Below the pieces are notes generated by a model, which was not told where the DNA came from, searched no databases, and worked only from the letters and a program-made list of their open reading frames with translations. The position numbers were made by a program, and so were the translations under genes. A stretch of 64,000 bases of DNA, taken from positions 1 to 64,000 of the forward strand of contig NZ_QGKM01000027.1 of NCBI RefSeq assembly GCF_003172875.1, read 5' to 3'. Of this stretch, positions 6,983 through 32,052 are shown in pieces. Position 1 is the stretch's first letter. Each line of letters starts with the position of its first letter. The stretch comes from Leucothrix pacifica (GTDB lineage: Bacteria; Pseudomonadota; Gammaproteobacteria; Thiotrichales; Thiotrichaceae).

Positions 6983-7471
6983 ATGCAGGATATGCATCAG
7001 GATGATGTGGTCTCCTCCTGTATCGAACAGGTGTTGGTGTATCACGATGACAGTCGCAGAAAAGTGTATGTAGCGGATCAGGAAGTTCCGTTTCCAGAGG
7101 GTAAACTGATCGTGTCACGCACCAATGAAGCAGGAATCATTACACACGGCAATCAGTCATTTGTTGAAATGTCTGGCTTCACTGAGGATGAATTGATTGG
7201 ACAGCCGCATCATATTTTAAGGCATCCTGACATGCCAAAAGCCGCATTCAAAGATCTCTGGGATACCTTGGCGCGGGGCGAAAAGTGGTCTGGCTATGTG
7301 AAGAATCTGCGTAAAGACGGTGCATATTATTGGGTGCTGGCAACAGTAGTGGCAAATATTCGTGGAGGGGAGGTGACGGGGTATACCTCGGTGCGCCGAA
7401 AGCCTTCTCGTGAGCGTATCGCAGAGTGTATCGAGCTATATCGTCAGATGCGTCTGGAGGAGGCCTCATGA
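6983..7471 (+). CDS. Stand-alone PAS-domain sensor protein (Aer-like PAS)
   Basis: 162 residues, almost entirely one PAS fold of the type found at the N-terminus of the aerotaxis receptor Aer: GKLIVSRTNEAGIITHGNQS, FVEMSGFTEDELIGQPHHIL, RHPDMPKAAFKDLWDTL and the NLRKDGAYYWVLATV beta-strand pair ending in YTSVRRKPS. Aer-type PAS domains bind FAD. There is no transmembrane, HAMP, kinase or GGDEF part, so it must signal by contact. The ribosome site AGAGGTGAAAT is good. Its stop overlaps the start of the PhnD-like gene (ATGA), implying joint production. Confidence 0.88.
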   Translation: MQDMHQDDVVSSCIEQVLVYHDDSRRKVYVADQEVPFPEGKLIVSRTNEAGIITHGNQSFVEMSGFTEDELIGQPHHILRHPDMPKAAFKDLWDTLARGEKWSGYVKNLRKDGAYYWVLATVVANIRGGEVTGYTSVRRKPSRERIAECIELYRQMRLEEAS

Positions 7472-8214
7472 AACCTTATACGATGACAGTGAGCCCTGAC
7501 TTTATGCCGGACTATATTGCGGGTTGGTATATTTTTAATACCTGGTTGCAACGTCAACTTGGCCAGTCGATCCACCTTGAGTTGTATAACGATTTCGCCA
7601 CCCAACGCGAAGCGATCTCACGAGATGAAATTGATCTGATTTATGCAAACCCATTTGATGCCGCAATGTTGGTACGAGAGAAGGGATTTAGTGCGATTGC
7701 AGCACCGCAAGATAAGCCAGATGAAGTCATTCTCGCAGTGCCGGCTGAATCACCCGTCAAAAAGCTAGATGACCTAACGCCAGGCACGCGCATCGCCCGA
7801 ACGGATGACCCTGATGTCAATTTGATTGGCATGATGATGATTGAATCTGCAGATTTAAAGGCGGATAACACCCATGTTCAAATGCTGGATAGTTATGTGC
7901 TGGTCGCCAAAGCTTTATTTCAGGAGCGGGCTGATCTTGGCTTTTTTCTGAAGGAGGCTTACGAAAGTCTATCGGATTTTGTGAGAAGTCAGCTAAGTGT
8001 GCTATTGAGCAGTGAGATTCATGTCGTCACACATGTGTTATTGGCAAGCCCGGCTTTTACAACACATCAAGATGAGCTGAGAGCCTGCCTATTGGATATG
8101 CCTCATCGGGATAAGGGGCAAGGTGTTTTGGATAGCATGGGATTATCCGGATGGCAGTTACAAGCTCAAGAAGACACTGAATTTATGATTGATTTGATGG
8201 ATACCTTGGCGTGA
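7468..8214 (+). CDS. PhnD-like substrate-binding-fold protein without signal peptide
   Basis: 248 residues from the ATG that overlaps the PAS stop by 4 bp. The sequence follows periplasmic phosphate/phosphonate-binding (PhnD-like) folds: YTMTVSPDFMPDYIAGWYIF, a LYNDFATQREAISRDEIDLIYANPFD region, then DDLTPGTRIARTDDPD and FQERADLGFFLKEAYE. No signal peptide or lipobox is present, so it is predicted cytosolic, unlike transport-linked members. No ABC permease or ATPase gene is adjacent. Partnership with the PAS protein is inferred from overlap. The ligand is unknown. Confidence 0.75.
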   Translation: MKPYTMTVSPDFMPDYIAGWYIFNTWLQRQLGQSIHLELYNDFATQREAISRDEIDLIYANPFDAAMLVREKGFSAIAAPQDKPDEVILAVPAESPVKKLDDLTPGTRIARTDDPDVNLIGMMMIESADLKADNTHVQMLDSYVLVAKALFQERADLGFFLKEAYESLSDFVRSQLSVLLSSEIHVVTHVLLASPAFTTHQDELRACLLDMPHRDKGQGVLDSMGLSGWQLQAQEDTEFMIDLMDTLA

Positions 8215-8307
8215 TTCGCCCACCAATAGGTAGTTGGTTGTTTTAGAGACAAGAGTCAATTCTGAGAGAGCTAACTCTTGCCTCTGAAGATATCGGAGAA
8301 GCGTTGA

Positions 8308-8817
8308 TTAACTATCGTTTGCCGTTGTCTCAACATCTCTTGAGCTAATGAATTTCTCTAAAGCTGCAATGGACAGAACACCAGGATTCAGGCCTACCAG
8401 CTCGCCGTCAGGGCTAAATACCATGAACGTGGGTGTGCCTCTGAGACTTTCTTTAGCATTCAATTCCATCCACGCGTTCATTTCGATGACATTGCTAAGG
8501 ATGGTCTTGAAGGGAATGTCAAAGTCTTTGATCATACCTTCGGCTTGCGCTTTACCTGCCTGACCATCCAGTGACACACCGAGTAGTCGTACTTTATTCA
8601 TTTTGCCATCAAACTCAACCATTTCCGGCATGTGCTCACGGCAGGCATGACAGTCTGATGCCCATATTTCCAGAACGGTCCATTTGCCATCGCCAATCTG
8701 GTCTTCAATGGTCGTTTTTGTTCCATCAAGCTCGGTGAAAGCGAACGCTGAAGTGCTCAGCACAACGACCGTAAAGAATGATAAAAATAATGTTTTTGTT
8801 AAAGAAAACAGTTTCAC
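8308..8817 (-). CDS. Exported TlpA/thioredoxin-like protein
   Basis: I place the start at the GTG at 8817, preceded by GAGGAAC at 8-nt spacing; the longer open frame to 8949 would run into the divergent mupP-like gene. The product is 169 residues with a signal peptide (about 1-26, ending STSAFA) and a thioredoxin fold whose active site is CHAC (C56, C59) in IWASDCHACREHMPE, with the cis-Pro in RGTPTFMVF. It is likely a periplasmic thiol-disulfide reductase of the TlpA/ResA type. No cytochrome c maturation genes are adjacent. Confidence 0.8.
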   Translation of the reverse strand: MKLFSLTKTLFLSFFTVVVLSTSAFAFTELDGTKTTIEDQIGDGKWTVLEIWASDCHACREHMPEMVEFDGKMNKVRLLGVSLDGQAGKAQAEGMIKDFDIPFKTILSNVIEMNAWMELNAKESLRGTPTFMVFSPDGELVGLNPGVLSIAALEKFISSRDVETTANDS

Positions 8818-8881
8818 GAGTATGTTCCTCAATTTATGATGCAGTTGCAGATTAATTCCAATAACGACAAAGATATAAAAA

Positions 8882-9592
8882 ATGCCGACAAGTTCCTTAT
8901 ATACGACCCGCGCTGTACTTTTCGATCTCGATGGTACGTTGCTGGACACCGCACCGGATATGGTACGGGCTCTCGATCTTCTGCTTCAAGAAGAAGGTGT
9001 ACCAACGGTTGAGCATGAAAAAGCACGTCAACAAGTATCGCATGGGGCTGGAGCGTTAGTGACTCTGGGGTTTGGCGAGACCCAAACGGAGCGCGATCAC
9101 AAGCGTCGCTGCCAGCGATATTTATCTCTATACGAGGAAAACCTCTGTGTGGATACAGATTTATTTGAGGGGATGGCAGAAACACTGAAATTTTTAGAAG
9201 ATCAGGATATCCTTTGGGGGGTTGTCACTAATAAGCCGGCGTTTTTAACGGAGCCGTTAATGAAGGCACTGAATCTGGACAAGCGCTCAAGCACCATTAT
9301 TAGTGGTGATTCCTTACCCCAGCGCAAGCCACACCCACAACCATTATTTCATGCTGCAAACGAGTGCGATGTGCTCACGACAGAGTGTATCTACGTTGGG
9401 GATGCTGAGCGCGATATTGTTGCTGGAAACAGGGCAGGGATGATTACCTTGTTGGCCAGTTATGGTTACATCGATGCCGGAGATCAACCGGAACGGTGGG
9501 GCGCAAATGGTATCATTGAGCACACACATGAAATATTGGATTGGCTGACTAAAGCCGACGAACTTGAGTTGGATATCCAAAAAGCCAACTAA
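8882..9592 (+). CDS. mupP: HAD-IA phosphatase, MupP / phosphoglycolate phosphatase-like
   Basis: 236 residues with RAVLFDLDGTLLDTAPDM (motif I), VSHGAGALVTLGFG, WGVVTNKP (motif II), GDSLPQRKPHPQPL (motif III) and YVGDAERDI (motif IV). In Pseudomonas this branch is N-acetylmuramic acid 6-phosphate phosphatase (MupP) of peptidoglycan recycling and sits beside yciK; older annotations say Gph. A yciK homologue lies downstream here, separated by the proton-channel pair, which supports the MupP reading. Activity on 2-phosphoglycolate cannot be excluded. Confidence 0.78.
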   Translation: MPTSSLYTTRAVLFDLDGTLLDTAPDMVRALDLLLQEEGVPTVEHEKARQQVSHGAGALVTLGFGETQTERDHKRRCQRYLSLYEENLCVDTDLFEGMAETLKFLEDQDILWGVVTNKPAFLTEPLMKALNLDKRSSTIISGDSLPQRKPHPQPLFHAANECDVLTTECIYVGDAERDIVAGNRAGMITLLASYGYIDAGDQPERWGANGIIEHTHEILDWLTKADELELDIQKAN

Positions 9593-9604
9593 TGGAGAAA
9601 AAGC

Positions 9605-10594
9605 GTGAATATAAGTAAAAACACCGCACGGTCCACGTTATTACAGGTCGTGCTGTTCCTGATTTTGGTAGCGGCGGCCTTATTCTGGCAGAGAAATAAT
9701 ATTGCTGACTTGTATCTGTCGGGTGAAATCAATCCGGTTGGTTGGTTGCTGAACAGCATCATTGTGTTGTTATTCCTGTTTGGAATGTTCCGCATGATTT
9801 CTCTACTGCTGTCTTACAGCCGTGAGCACAGTGTGTTGGAGCGCTTGGTCGATTCGATTACCGATGGCGCAAATGACCCGACAGGACGTTTGCCGGAGAA
9901 TGCATTGGCCGTAGCACGCTACAAATATGTTCAGAGTATGGCGTTACGGGCGCTACCGATTAATCATGGCGCGTTGGCATCTAGTCTAAGTACGTCAGAG
10001 CAAAGCCGCTTTACGCTGGTGCGTTACATCAATAGTATTTTGATTTTGCTGGGTGTATTCGGAACCGTCGTGTCATTGTCGATTGCGTTGATTGGCGCGT
10101 CTAACTTATTGGATTCACCGGACGGTGCCAATCGCATGGGGATGATTATCGGTGGCATGTCATCAGCACTCAGTACCACTATGACTGCTATTGTGTGTTT
10201 CGTCATTTATGCCTATTTTTACCTTCGACTGAATAATGCGCGTGCCCAATTGCTTAATGGCATTGAGAGCATGACAAGTATGCATTTATTGCCGAATGTG
10301 ACGCATAACGAGGAATCATTGATTCGCCATGTTGCAGATCTCACTGTGGCCTTGAATAAGTCTGCGGATCGTTTGAATGAGATGCAGCAACATTTCACTA
10401 CCGCAGCTAATCAATTGGCGGGCGCGGTGGTTAAGCAAAATGGGCCGGCTGGTGTGACGGAGGAAAGTATTCAGGAACTTAAAGATTTACTGCGTGAAGG
10501 GTTCCGTTTACCAAAGTCGCCATTAAAAGCAGCGCCTCGGGAACCATTAGGTTCACATATCCCAAAGCGTGATCACATGGATCCTAAGCTATGA
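9605..10594 (+). CDS. MotA/TolQ/ExbB (ZorA-like) proton-channel family membrane protein
   Basis: 329 residues starting at a GTG with GGAG 7 nt upstream, 12 bp after the mupP-like gene. There are four hydrophobic segments (about 10-28, 44-66, 141-165, 181-205). The third and fourth carry the MotA/TolQ/ExbB signature: SILILLGVFGTVVSLSIAL, then GGMSSALSTTMTAIVC. The C-terminal ~110 residues are soluble with amphipathic helices. It should form the pentameric stator-type channel with the next gene product, whose start overlaps this stop by 4 bp. TolQ/ExbB themselves are shorter and genetically linked to tolR/exbD. Confidence 0.75.
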   Translation: MNISKNTARSTLLQVVLFLILVAAALFWQRNNIADLYLSGEINPVGWLLNSIIVLLFLFGMFRMISLLLSYSREHSVLERLVDSITDGANDPTGRLPENALAVARYKYVQSMALRALPINHGALASSLSTSEQSRFTLVRYINSILILLGVFGTVVSLSIALIGASNLLDSPDGANRMGMIIGGMSSALSTTMTAIVCFVIYAYFYLRLNNARAQLLNGIESMTSMHLLPNVTHNEESLIRHVADLTVALNKSADRLNEMQQHFTTAANQLAGAVVKQNGPAGVTEESIQELKDLLREGFRLPKSPLKAAPREPLGSHIPKRDHMDPKL

Positions 10595-11901
10595 CGGGCG
10601 GCTTCCCCGATTACCATAATTTTCCTGACCGGGATAAGGGGGAGGAAAGCTTCTGGCCATCATTTACCGATATTATGATGGTGATCACAATGGTGTTTTT
10701 GTTAGTCACGGTGATGGTGATTACCAATAACTGGAAGTTGGTAACGGATTTACAGGAAAGTATGCAGGCGCAGCGTTTGGCGGCAGAGCAGGCGCTGGAT
10801 AAAGAAGCCAAGAATCATACCTTGGAAGATCGTATGAATTTGCTGGAAAATCGTTTGAAGTCATCCAGAGAAGTGGTGGCTGAAAAACAAATTGAGAATG
10901 AAAGCCTGCAAGCTGAGATTGATCGTATTCTCAAAAAGATCACACAGATTGAAACGGAGTTGGCCGCGAGTGTGAAGCTGCTGGAGAAGCGACAAGTTCA
11001 GATCGCACAGCGTGATGATCAAATTGCAAACCTTAAAGCAGATCGCGATAAGCAATTGGTGACACTGGAAAACAGAGCACAGGCCTTGGCAACGTTGCAG
11101 GGTATTCAGGAGACAAGTCAGAGTCAGGTGCTACGTTTGCAAGCCGCTTTGGATGATAAAGAAGTTGAGCTGGAGTCCTCTAAACAAGCAAATGAGGAAA
11201 AGATAAAAGCGCTTGAGCTGGCGATGACGCGGTCTGAACTTGAGCTGCAGAAAAGCTTAGAAGCGAATGAGCGTTTGGCGGTGTTAGAGGCAGCACTGAA
11301 AGCATCTGAAGAGACTTTAGCAGACACTAAAAAGGCTAATGACGAGCGTATTAGTGAATTACAGAATCAATTGATTAGTGCGCAAACTTCCTTGTCAGAT
11401 ACACAGGAAAGTCAGCAGGTTAGCCAAGAGCAATTAGAGAATATGCGAAGTGAGTTCGCAGCGTTGCAAGCAGCGAAACAAGCTGAATCTGACCGACTGG
11501 CAGGCCTGCAAAGCGAAATTGCCCGAATTCAGTCCTTACGCTCTGAGGATATGGCCAAGCTCGAGAGCCTGCAGGGTGAGTTTGATACGTTGGATACTAA
11601 GTATAAAAAGCTAGTCCGGCCAGCGCGTTCCAGTGAGGGTAAACATGTCGTATCTGTTTGGTTTAGCAAGCAAAGTGGCCGCGAAGTGTATCGTATTCGT
11701 GATGCGACAGAGGATGAATTCAGAACCATAAGCCGTCCCGCAATGGCGTCAGCATTGGCAGGATTAAAAGACAAACATGGTAAATCGCTGTACGTTAGAA
11801 TCATAATCCCTGAGAATAGCGGCCTTTCGTATTCCGATGCATGGCGTTTTACCACGGAAATGCAGCGGGCTTATGACTATTATTATCAAGACGATGAATA
11901 A
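10591..11901 (+). CDS. MotB/ZorB-like membrane protein with long coiled coil, no OmpA domain
   Basis: 436 residues, ATG overlapping the previous stop (ATGA). The N-terminus has the MotB/ZorB-type plug FWPSFTDIMMVITMVFLLVT, with an aspartate (D27) at the start of the only membrane helix where the proton-carrying Asp of MotB and ZorB sits. Residues ~50-340 are an almost unbroken heptad-rich, Glu/Gln/Leu coiled coil. The last ~95 residues (VSVWFSKQSGREVYRIRDAT onward) form a small domain I do not recognise. It is not OmpA/MotB peptidoglycan binding. The pair is likely an ion-driven force-transmitting complex; its task is unknown. Confidence 0.72.
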   Translation: MTGGFPDYHNFPDRDKGEESFWPSFTDIMMVITMVFLLVTVMVITNNWKLVTDLQESMQAQRLAAEQALDKEAKNHTLEDRMNLLENRLKSSREVVAEKQIENESLQAEIDRILKKITQIETELAASVKLLEKRQVQIAQRDDQIANLKADRDKQLVTLENRAQALATLQGIQETSQSQVLRLQAALDDKEVELESSKQANEEKIKALELAMTRSELELQKSLEANERLAVLEAALKASEETLADTKKANDERISELQNQLISAQTSLSDTQESQQVSQEQLENMRSEFAALQAAKQAESDRLAGLQSEIARIQSLRSEDMAKLESLQGEFDTLDTKYKKLVRPARSSEGKHVVSVWFSKQSGREVYRIRDATEDEFRTISRPAMASALAGLKDKHGKSLYVRIIIPENSGLSYSDAWRFTTEMQRAYDYYYQDDE

Positions 11902-11917
11902 CCTTACAGGATGGTGT

Positions 11918-12712
11918 ATGTCTGAATCATTACTCAATTTTGTTCCATCTGCCGGCGCTTTAGACGGGAGAAAAATTCTTGTCACCGGAGCTGGTGCGGG
12001 AATAGGTCGAGCGATTGCAAAAGCATATGCAAGCTTTGGTGCGACAGTGGTTTTGTTAGGAAAAACGATTCCGGAACTGGAAGTCGTCTATGATGAAATC
12101 ACCGAAGCTGGTGGCCCTGAGCCTGCCATTTACCCTCTGGATATGACAGGGGCTACTGCCCACGACTATGAAGAAATGTCACGTATCCTCAACGAGCAGT
12201 TAGAGGGGTTGGACGGTCTTGTCCTCAATGCCGCATGGTTGCCGGGCTTTGTGCCTTTTGAACAGTATGATCTGGAAATGTGGCAAAAAGTGATGACGAT
12301 TGATCTCACGGCTAACTACTTGATTACACAGGCTTGTCTACCGATGCTCTGCGCGTCGGAGCATGGTTCTATCATTCATTCTGCGCACACCATGAATCGT
12401 GCGTATGCGGGTGCGTTTGGGGTGGCTAAAGCAGGAATGGCCGCCATGATGTCGATTGTTGCGGATGAATATGACAATCCAGATCGCTTTGTGCGTGTCA
12501 ATACTATTGATAGTGGCCCGCTTCGCACACAAATGCGCAAGCTAAACTATCCGGGTGAAAACACTGATAGTCTGGCTGAGCCAGAGGCGGTTATTGGCCC
12601 TTATATCTATTTCATGAGTGATGATGCCGGCACCCGAACCGGAGAGGCAATCGCTTTTGGTAAGGTCGATGCTGACTTCGTTTGGCCAGGTATCAAAGTG
12701 GAAAGCGCTTAA
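11918..12712 (+). CDS. YciK-type short-chain dehydrogenase with altered active site
   Basis: 264 residues from the ATG at 11918 (SD-like CAGGATGG; the open frame extends upstream into the previous gene). The Rossmann motif is ILVTGAGAGIGRAIA and the NAA motif LVLNAAWLPG. Segments before and after the active site follow the YciK family. The active-site Ser is kept (S155) but the catalytic Tyr of YxxxK is Phe here (F167-G-V-A-K171; TTT at 12416-12418). Classical dehydrogenase activity is therefore doubtful. Placement near mupP matches the Pseudomonas order. Confidence 0.82.
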   Translation: MSESLLNFVPSAGALDGRKILVTGAGAGIGRAIAKAYASFGATVVLLGKTIPELEVVYDEITEAGGPEPAIYPLDMTGATAHDYEEMSRILNEQLEGLDGLVLNAAWLPGFVPFEQYDLEMWQKVMTIDLTANYLITQACLPMLCASEHGSIIHSAHTMNRAYAGAFGVAKAGMAAMMSIVADEYDNPDRFVRVNTIDSGPLRTQMRKLNYPGENTDSLAEPEAVIGPYIYFMSDDAGTRTGEAIAFGKVDADFVWPGIKVESA

Positions 12713-12715
12713 CTC

Positions 12716-13711
12716 ATGATGTTTGAATTTGATACGCTTTACCGTGATCTGAAGGAGTCAGAGCTAGCGCCTTGGTTGGATGATCTGCCGGATCAAATTG
12801 AACAGGTCTTTAAAGAAAAGACGCATGGCTTTTTGGCGGACTGGGTTCAGCTCATTCACGATATGCCGAAACCGCAGCCTGGCAGCGTTGATTTTAATAC
12901 TGGTCGGGTGAGGATAGGTTGTGCTGAAGATATTGATACGGCTGATGCTGAGGTGCTGGAACAACAGCTACGCACGATAATCCCTTGGCGCAAAGGGCCT
13001 TATGAACTGTTTGGTATCCACATCAACACGGAATGGCGTTCTGACTTTAAGTGGGACCGTATTCAGCCTCATTTATCACCGTTAAAAGGTCGGACTATTC
13101 TGGATGTAGGCTGTGGTAACGGTTATCACATGTGGCGCATGCTGGGTGAAGGCGCTGATCTTGTGATTGGGGCGGACCCTAGCCAGTTCTTTTTAGCGCA
13201 GTTTAGAGCGATTAAGCAGTACGCAGGTAGTGACTTACCAGTACACCTGCTACCAATGAAGAGTGAGCAATTACCGGCGTTTACGCGTGAGTATAAAGGC
13301 ATTGGATTTGATACCGTGTTTTCAATGGGCGTGTTATATCACCGTGCTTCACCAGTCACTCATCTGCAAGAGTTACGTAGCTTTTTGCGGCGTGGCGGTG
13401 AGTTAGTGCTGGAGACGCTTGTGATAGAGGGTGACGAGCAGACAACACTGGTTCCTGAGGATCGTTATGCAAAGATGCGTAACGTCTGGTTCGTTGCATC
13501 GACACCGTTCTTGATTCGCCTGTTGGAGCGGGTGGGCTTTGTGAATTGCAGGATCGTTGATGAATGCGTGACTTCGCTAGAGGAGCAGCGAGCGACGGAC
13601 TGGATGAACTTTGAATCGCTGGAAGACTTCCTTGATCCTGCAGACCACAGTAAAACGATTGAAGGTTATCCGGCACCACGACGAGCAACTATTATTTGTG
13701 AAGTGCCATAG
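12716..13711 (+). CDS. cmoB: tRNA U34 carboxymethyltransferase
   Basis: 331 residues, close to E. coli CmoB (323). Family landmarks: WRKGPYELFGIHINTEWRSD, KWDRI, the SAM site ILDVGCGNGYHMWRML, GADPSQFFLAQF, FSMGVLYHRASP and RYAKMRNVWFVAS. It transfers the carboxymethyl group of carboxy-SAM to 5-hydroxyuridine at tRNA position 34, making cmo5U. It starts 3 bp after the yciK-like gene, in the same transcript. cmoA, which makes carboxy-SAM, is not in the window. A strong terminator follows at 13879. Confidence 0.95.
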   Translation: MMFEFDTLYRDLKESELAPWLDDLPDQIEQVFKEKTHGFLADWVQLIHDMPKPQPGSVDFNTGRVRIGCAEDIDTADAEVLEQQLRTIIPWRKGPYELFGIHINTEWRSDFKWDRIQPHLSPLKGRTILDVGCGNGYHMWRMLGEGADLVIGADPSQFFLAQFRAIKQYAGSDLPVHLLPMKSEQLPAFTREYKGIGFDTVFSMGVLYHRASPVTHLQELRSFLRRGGELVLETLVIEGDEQTTLVPEDRYAKMRNVWFVASTPFLIRLLERVGFVNCRIVDECVTSLEEQRATDWMNFESLEDFLDPADHSKTIEGYPAPRRATIICEVP

Positions 13712-31203: not shown

Positions 31204-32052
31204 ATGAACGCTTCACTACTCGATTACATAAAGTCTGGCTCTTTGTATGCACTACCACACCACGCTATCTCACGGGTTGTGTATAAGTTAACGCGGATTG
31301 AGTCTCCGGTAGTCGTGCCTGTTATCAAGGGGTTTGCGAGAGTATTTAAGGTCGATTTAAGTGAGGCGAAACAGCCAGAGCCAGAAAGTTATAAGAGCTT
31401 TAATGCCTTTTTCACTCGTGAGATTAAACCAGAGCTTCGACCGATCGCAGACACAGCTATCGTAAGTCCGGTGGATGGTACCGTGAGCCAGTCAGGTGCA
31501 ATTAATGCCGGTAGAATTTTTCAGGCTAAGGGGCAGGATTATACCGTTCAGGAGTTGTTGGCTTGTGATGATGCAATGGCTGAGTCGTTTGCTAATGGCC
31601 AGTTTTTGACAATCTACTTGTCACCACGAGATTATCATCGTATGCACATGCCTTTTAAGGGGCATTTAACGGAACAAGTGCATGTACCCGGACGCTTATT
31701 TAGTGTTGCACCGCATACCGTAAAAACCGTATCCCGAATCTTTGCCCGTAACGAACGTGTAGTGGCCCACTTCGATACAGACTACGGTCGAATGGCGATG
31801 GTCTTAGTGGGTGCTATCAATGTAGCGGCTATAGAAACAGTATGGGACGGACTTGTGACTCCGCCTAAAGGTAAAACCATCTCACGTAAGGCTTATGCTG
31901 TGGGTGATGTGACTCTGGACAAAGGCCAGGAGTTAGGGCGATTTAACATGGGATCAACGATCGTCATGCTAATGGAATCTAAAAGCCCTGAATTGTCAAA
32001 GTCATTGATTGAAGGCCTGCCCGTTAAAATGGGGCAAGCCTTCTCAGACTGA
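31204..32052 (+). CDS. psd: Phosphatidylserine decarboxylase proenzyme
   Basis: 282 residues from the ATG at 31204 (AAGG upstream); an in-frame start at 31165 adds 13 residues. SYKSFNAFFTREIKPELRPI, SPVDGTVSQSG, YLSPRDYHRMHMP and the self-cleavage site MGST (usual LGST) are present; cleavage before Ser gives the pyruvoyl group. It makes phosphatidylethanolamine at the inner membrane. The upstream enzyme PssA is encoded at 44326. Confidence 0.95.
   Translation: MNASLLDYIKSGSLYALPHHAISRVVYKLTRIESPVVVPVIKGFARVFKVDLSEAKQPEPESYKSFNAFFTREIKPELRPIADTAIVSPVDGTVSQSGAINAGRIFQAKGQDYTVQELLACDDAMAESFANGQFLTIYLSPRDYHRMHMPFKGHLTEQVHVPGRLFSVAPHTVKTVSRIFARNERVVAHFDTDYGRMAMVLVGAINVAAIETVWDGLVTPPKGKTISRKAYAVGDVTLDKGQELGRFNMGSTIVMLMESKSPELSKSLIEGLPVKMGQAFSD

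Follow-up and report, generated by a model that had tools for sequence, protein, structure and literature searches.

A candidate ion-driven envelope motor of Leucothrix pacifica with a coiled-coil shaft and a predicted TolR-like head

Introduction

How motors with five wheel subunits around two axle subunits transfer force across the periplasm is an open question; in the Tol and Ton systems, the link is shared with other proteins. Here, we describe a gene pair of Leucothrix pacifica that lies at positions 9605–11901 of a 64,000-nucleotide stretch of DNA (NCBI RefSeq assembly GCF_003172875.1, contig NZ_QGKM01000027.1, positions 1 to 64,000 of the forward strand; the whole stretch is called the window below). 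Its products, A and B, appear to form an ion-driven motor in which a single chain makes up axle, shaft and head. The shaft, apparently without a hinge, varies more than threefold in length between homologues, mostly in heptad steps, which makes rigid force transmission directly testable.

Several described motors share parts of this design. Like TolQ-TolR(-TolA), the pair combines a channel protein of the PF01618 family with an ion-carrying aspartate on a single axle helix and a predicted TolR-like head, and like TolA, whose domain II comprises 110–335 residues with a median of 192 (PMC12204202), it would span the periplasm. TolR, however, has a short linker that is proposed to unfold to reach the wall, whereas B carries a rod of 142–479 residues between helix and head. 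Also unlike in Tol, no TolA, TolB or Pal partner adjoins the pair, and A, with four predicted helices where TolQ has three, compares better with MotA-like proteins than with TolQ.

In GldL-GldM and PorL-PorM, it is the axle that forms the shaft across the periplasm (18 nm long in GldM; PMC9389320). The GldM shaft consists of four folded domains, whereas B has one coiled coil followed by the TolR-like head. A further difference is that neither GldK nor GldN was seen at the loci of our pair, and GldL has two helices rather than four. The TPH-vWA system pairs a TolQ-like gene with one partner that has both an ion-path helix and a working domain of its own, with no TolR/ExbD gene (PMC12204202), an organization that A and B share; the head there is a vWA domain, for which a Pfam scan of B gave no match. 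Axles extended into shafts and a TolQ-like protein with a single working partner are thus already known. ZorA-ZorB, of the Zorya defence systems, has a two-gene MotAB-like core as well, and the helix region of B matches ZorB models. Unlike in Zorya, the long coiled coil belongs to B and would be periplasmic, whereas that of ZorA is a cytosolic tail; the head has no ZorB match, an OmpA-type domain is missing and ZorC/D/E are absent. Flagellar MotA-MotB resembles the pair in its four-helix A and Asp-bearing B, but MotB differs in having an OmpA-like domain, and a plug and short linker in place of the long rod. Non-flagellar motors with extraordinarily large periplasmic domains are mentioned in a survey of 2025; we did not find the A/B family in the passages of it consulted, nor in the open-access literature searched, mostly by listing and by the starts of abstracts. 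Among the models searched in Pfam, NCBIfam, PHROGs and PADLOC, none but the generic MotA_ExbB describes the pair.

Results

Genes A and B encode a putative wheel subunit and a putative axle subunit

Gene A (9605–10594, forward strand; GTG start, 329 amino acids) encodes a wheel subunit of the MotA/TolQ/ExbB type, as judged from the open reading frame (ORF) list, Pfam, alignment and hydropathy. Its stop overlaps, as ATGA, the start of gene B (10591–11901, forward strand; 436 amino acids), for which the ORF list and AlphaFold point to an axle-rod-head subunit. The pair is confirmed as real, single-copy and conserved. An initial annotation of the window had described a MotA/TolQ-type channel protein coupled by ATGA to a protein with the motif FWPSFTDIMM, and both points were borne out: A passes the Pfam gathering cut-off for MotA_ExbB (PF01618; 23.5 bits against 22.9, residues 131–217), the same family matches 17 of 21 aligned homologues at E ≤ 0.001, and the motif is present in B with D27 encoded at 10669–10671 (forward strand).

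Hydropathy predicts four transmembrane helices in A and one in B. Two threonines of A, T154 in GVFGTV (10064–10066) and T192 in LSTTMTAI (10178–10180; both forward strand), are the presumed pore residues, which we take to be equivalent to the pore threonines of TolQ/ExbB; each is invariant in 21 of 21 aligned homologues, and in the same alignment an R-x-GF-x-L motif at the C-terminus of A is invariant too. The single helix of B spans about residues 24–45 (10660–10725, forward strand; AlphaFold, hydropathy and profile alignment) and holds D27, the presumed ion-carrying aspartate, which is Asp in 76 of 80 unique homologues and Asn in four. In a short and weak profile alignment, this helix aligns with that of ExbD, with the two aspartates in register. 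These features support the annotation's claim of an ion-driven channel/axle pair with a long rod on the axle, and no zor, exb or tol partner adjoins the pair, as it had also stated.

The annotation had left the rod as cytosolic or periplasmic. By analogy with homologous motors, we infer that the N-terminus of B is inside and that rod and head are periplasmic. The basic residues of A (two at the N-terminus, eight in the loop after helix 2, 15 in the tail, and zero and one in the other loops) weakly suggest the same orientation, as the counts fit cytosolic ends, although the long loops are almost balanced by acidic residues.

Rod lengths change in heptad steps

From the membrane helix, B continues into a proline-free, predicted coiled coil of about 286 residues (10729–11592, forward strand), which would measure about 42 nm as one straight helix. 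AlphaFold models B as helix at residues 26–214 and 222–341, followed by a small alpha/beta domain, with low confidence for residues 1–27. Not one proline occurs in the 16,381 rod residues of the 80 unique homologues, and hydrophobic periodicity at 3.5 residues beats shuffled sequences with z > 3 in 77 of the 80. Converted at 0.1485 nm per residue, the rods (142–479 residues, median 177) are 21.1 to 71.1 nm long, with a median of 26.3 nm and an interquartile range of 24–30 nm; the window rod comes to 42.5 nm. B proteins of the Cocleimonas type (L056, L057, L065 and L068) have 578–628 amino acids and rods about 2.5 times the median length; Cocleimonas rods come to some 64–71 nm, whereas those of Thiothrix come to some 23 nm.

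Upon counting the residues between the aspartate motif and the head motif (98 of 101 B sequences, 78 of them unique; L117, L073 and L112 were dropped because the patterns missed their motifs), we observed that the distance modulo 7 is 4 in 49, 1 in 20 and 5 in 5 of the 78 unique sequences. Two phases therefore hold 69 of the 78 rods and three of the seven phases hold 74; the three classes also hold 32 of the 36 distinct rod lengths. The classes are separated by successive additions of 4, the classical stutter of coiled coils. Moduli 3 to 12 other than 7 gave nothing comparable, and total B length, to which variable tails contribute, carries no heptad signal, which is confined to the motif-to-head distance. 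To lessen the effect of relatedness, we took nearest-neighbour pairs from a tree of the non-rod parts, in which the lengths are unequal in 28 of the 39 pairs. The difference is an exact multiple of 7 in 14 of these 28 (1 in 7 expected, p 8e-6), and it is 0 or 3/4 modulo 7 in 24 (p 4e-6). Because lengths change in heptad steps, the two ends of the rod appear to be phased to each other, a pattern that fits one continuous coiled-coil shaft rather than a hinged linker.

The head has a predicted TolR/ExbD-like fold

The head comprises about 102 residues (11593–11898, forward strand), with conserved KYxKLxRPAR and YDYY motifs and a predicted TolR/ExbD-like alpha/beta fold. It matches no curated family, and a Pfam scan of B found no OmpA family and, at E ≤ 1, no ExbD (PF02472). 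The annotation's new C-terminal domain in place of OmpA therefore stands where sequence families are concerned; in predicted fold, the domain resembles TolR/ExbD. AlphaFold models of 70 heads (mean pLDDT 81) have the order beta-beta-beta-alpha-beta-alpha, and the idea of TolR/ExbD came from this secondary-structure order, before the structure search. When the top chains from Foldseek were structurally re-aligned (996 chains aligned), the best match was TolR (5by4; Z 7.8 over 86 residues at 2.8 Å), followed by ExbD (8vgd, 8p9r and 8vgc; Z 6.4, 6.3 and 6.0 over 68–70 residues at 2.6–2.9 Å) and, in fifth place, by pantothenate kinase (2f9t, Z 5.7). Our list of matches includes 2f9t, EpsL and RuvX; in favor of the likeness, the TolR paper reports 2f9t, a GspL domain of type II secretion and a RuvX-like domain as DALI relatives of TolR itself. 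As modeled, the head would be neither OmpA nor a clearly new fold, its predicted fold being closest to TolR and then to ExbD. The periplasmic domain of ExbD binds peptidoglycan transiently, and that of TolR does so only once it has lost its swapped strands (PMC10771500, PMC4646322). Given the predicted likeness of the head to these domains, the annotation's statement that the pair has no peptidoglycan-binding domain is unsafe, and by analogy the head may bind the wall.

A proposed shaft-driven motor and the evidence for and against it

The reading we favor, with some confidence, is a 5:2-type ion-driven motor whose continuous shaft carries a TolR-like head across the periplasm. Five A subunits would surround two B subunits, a stoichiometry suggested by the family, and ion flow past D27 of B and T154/T192 of A would turn the A ring relative to the B dimer. 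Each B helix would pass without a flexible linker from the membrane into one continuous coiled coil of two strands, which would take the head across the periplasm. According to the TolR paper, peptidoglycan is about 9 nm from the inner membrane. Because even the shortest rod is 21 nm long, the head most likely works beyond the wall, where it could sit at the wall's outer face or on an outer-membrane lipoprotein and deliver torque or pull. One protein would thereby join roles that are split between TolR (axle and head) and TolA (reach), and the pair would be a further envelope motor beside Tol and Ton, in which a single chain unites an axle helix like that of MotB/ZorB, a reach like that of TolA and a head resembling TolR.

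We reject the idea that the pair replaces Tol, as TolQ-like and TolR-like genes and a TolA-like ORF occur in the same genome, which has Ton-type parts as well. The TolA-like ORF, of 500 residues and identified by position and composition only, adjoins the TolQ/TolR-like genes; the TolA model gave matches in 50 of 55 genomes of the relatives set and none in this genome.

Several observations weigh against the shaft-driven, TolR-like reading, the first of which concern the motor core. In profile comparisons (hhalign), A gave probabilities of 49–71% with three other MotA-like proteins of its own genome, 2.6–7.8% with that genome's TolQ/ExbB proteins and 0.6%, over the tail only, with its ZorA2, where ten decoys gave ≤0.4%. 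The first 75 residues of B match six ZorB models (best 4.5e-7), and the whole protein matches ZorB models at residues 18–119 only (best ZorB3, 2.5e-7); of the controls taken from this genome, two ExbD proteins and an axle-like ORF had no match at E ≤ 1, and TolR had none at E ≤ 0.001. By sequence, the core seems not to be TolQR-like in particular. Rather, it resembles MotAB/ZorAB-type motors in general, here combined with a head whose predicted fold is TolR-like. The head likeness is itself open to doubt: Foldseek with the head model returned nothing at E ≤ 0.001, Pfam ExbD matched 2 of 27 heads with a best E of 0.052, and profile comparison with 24 ExbD/TolR proteins gave no support. A Z below 8 may also reflect a common arrangement. 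As to the rod, the AlphaFold model of the window protein is broken at residues 214–221, with low confidence. Rods of up to 71 nm are longer than any ordinary periplasm is wide, and fitting into it would require them to be bent, tilted or folded back. Lastly, the homologous loci (the best 80 of 148 head relatives in named genome contigs) contain no fixed partner gene; the pair therefore looks self-sufficient.

Alternative readings

A different geometry would use the head as an anchor, holding the axle to peptidoglycan while the A ring turns an unlinked cytosolic partner, as in flagellar MotAB. The transient binding by the ExbD domain, and by TolR's without its swapped strands (PMC10771500, PMC4646322), would suit such an anchor, and the invariant R-x-GF-x-L at the end of A could dock a partner. 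This arrangement is nevertheless unlikely, since the shortest rod is more than twice as long as the distance of ~9 nm to the wall, and no neighbor gene is conserved.

We give still less credence to a motor for gliding or surface motility, that is a gammaproteobacterial counterpart of GldLM. Named carriers are Leucothrix, Cocleimonas, Thiothrix, Thiofilum, Thiolinea, Sedimenticola, tubeworm symbionts and others, and Leucothrix and Thiothrix are known for gliding gonidia. Yet the pair also occurs in the tubeworm symbionts, in Sedimenticola and in two families outside the class, which are not known gliders, and the four predicted helices of A contrast with the two of GldL. General family scans listed no GldM family among the matches of B, a direct comparison with the GldM domains D1–D4 not having been made. 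What remains in favor is that the GldM axle is likewise extended, as a shaft of 18 nm (PMC9389320).

Least credible, and in our view very improbable, is a divergent Zorya-type defence motor without ZorC/D/E or having lost them: the ZorA2 match of A (1.9e-5) and the ZorB matches of B, absent from the ExbD/TolR controls, speak for it, but other MotA-like proteins of the genome score similarly on ZorA (4.9e-5 and 1.9e-4), where its real ZorA2 scores 4.4e-156, the head matches no ZorB model, such neighbors as could be named through representatives are housekeeping genes, many members of the family carry the pair, with one record titled as a plasmid (L073), and neither A in plasmid records nor B in phage records found a match. 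The defence role that the annotation had entertained thus finds no support. We reject membership of Zorya proper on the ZorA score, far below that of a true member, on the unmatched head and on the lack of ZorC/D/E alongside; among the seven window proteins scanned at 6983–13711 there was no ZorC, ZorD or ZorE. PHROGs gave no match for A, for the first 75 residues of B or for the head. The genuine type II Zorya ZorA (L140, E 4.4e-156) is encoded elsewhere in the genome, on contig C2 around position 31940.

A charge-swapped variant in Thiothrix

M34 of B (10690–10692, forward strand), two helical turns above D27, is lysine in one Thiothrix clade. B was found in 16 of 16 Thiothrix genomes searched, and four of them combine N27 with K34. 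These four also have MWDIIGGM in A, at a site where the other genomes have MGTIIGGM or similar; comparison of the Thiothrix sequences places this W-D at residues 179–180 of A, which are G-M in the window protein (10139–10144, forward strand). The A of one of the twelve other Thiothrix genomes (G035) was not extracted by the script, and its alignment row lacks the W-D. The swapped pairs lie at loci L180, L181, L182 and L194/L197. The four group as a single clade (support 0.999) when 13 A sequences are placed on a tree; the charge swap therefore had one origin and is not a case of repeated covariation. Within this clade, dN/dS is 0.06–0.11 for A (five of six pairs computable) and 0.10–0.16 for B (three of six), with synonymous sites near saturation, compared with at most 0.07 (A) and 0.08 (B) in the D27 group. 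Both genes are under purifying selection, looser than in the D27 group but with ratios far below 1.

K34, seven residues after position 27, is on the same helix face, and the new Asp of A is at the outer end of its fourth helix. Tentatively, and against our own leaning, the variant could be a charge-inverted ion motor, in which the carboxylate has moved from two axle helices to five wheel subunits and a cation is placed on the axle. If still ion-driven, it would reverse the family's usual arrangement, reminiscent of the c-ring of ATP synthase with its stator arginine. The variant offers a test of whether the aspartate must sit on the axle.

Distribution

Among the 57 genomes of the relatives set, A was found in 33 and B in 31, counting weak matches to A in G001 and G056 and to B in G031. 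Strong matches to both genes occur in 29 of 49 good-quality relatives, own genome included; the raw tallies of 30 each among these 49 include one weak match, in G056 for A and in G031 for B. Of 370 genomes of the class, 55 (26 families, 40 genera) contain A, and precisely these 55 contain the head; the best matches to the two are on different contigs in three of the 55 carriers (G081, G270 and G353). In a phylum sample, A was found in 21 of 397 genomes, 19 of which belong to two families outside the class; six of these 19 loci were read, and in each of them B has both the aspartate and the head. The pair also appears on records titled Aquificaceae and Nitrospirae (L059 and L126), which are possibly mislabelled bins.

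Of the 55 carriers, 43 have the sulfur-oxidation gene dsrA, compared with 82 of the 315 non-carriers (odds ratio 10, uncorrected for relatedness). With 12 carriers lacking dsrA and 82 dsrA genomes lacking the pair, we retain a link to sulfur oxidation as an ecological note only. The pair would give many sulfur-oxidising bacteria an additional envelope motor.

Genomic neighborhood

The seven scanned window proteins, pair included, have as neighbors of the pair HAD, SDR, cmoB, thioredoxin-like and PAS proteins. The annotation had placed the pair between mupP and yciK. The flanks are indeed a HAD/MupP-like gene (187 bits, NCBI cut-off 359) and a YciK-like gene (236 bits, cut-off 269), with both names below the NCBI cut-offs. 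We take mupP and yciK to adjoin in Pseudomonas. In the 80 loci, a mupP homologue occurs in 13, directly before A in nine, and a YciK homologue in nine, directly after B in seven; both flank the pair in three. The pair is thus not always inserted near mupP/yciK, as had been asked, and we reject the wall-recycling role suggested from mupP, since the neighborhood is not conserved. To look for an empty site, yciK was sought in seven relatives that lack the pair or match A (G001) or B (G031) no more than weakly: three of them (G012, G017 and G023) had a yciK match, and in none of the three did the 1.5 kb flanks show mupP.

Only A (66) and B (72 by script) recur throughout the 80 loci, and the neighbors differ between lineages. 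Neighbor counts are lower bounds, as missed genes lie mostly under antisense ORFs or at contig ends: B is absent from the script's gene set in eight of 80 loci, namely six with longer antisense ORFs, L062 at a contig start, and L097. The long antisense ORFs, a cluster of 345–506 amino acids over the pair in L075, L078, L093, L102, L122 and L127, are probably compositional. Named from one representative per cluster, minC was found in 12, a minD-like gene in 13, rmuC in 14, thiC in 10, DUF455 in 12 and DUF4147/MOFRL in nine of the 80 loci.

Beside the HAD gene, on the opposite strand, the window has a thioredoxin/TlpA-like gene (8308–8949), with a homologue in 20 of 80 loci. cmoB directly follows the YciK-like gene, the two lying at 11918–13711; in some relatives (7 of 80 loci), a methyltransferase-family gene, which we presume may be cmoA, lies between them. 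The genome contains two more MotA-like genes (L137 on contig C133 and L138 on contig C35). The former is followed by an ORF with a PFTDLLFN helix, which matches no PADLOC model and could be another axle protein with a working domain of its own. In Thiothrix fructosivorans (L073), minC and minD-like genes accompany the pair on a 446-kb record whose title names it plasmid pTfr446.

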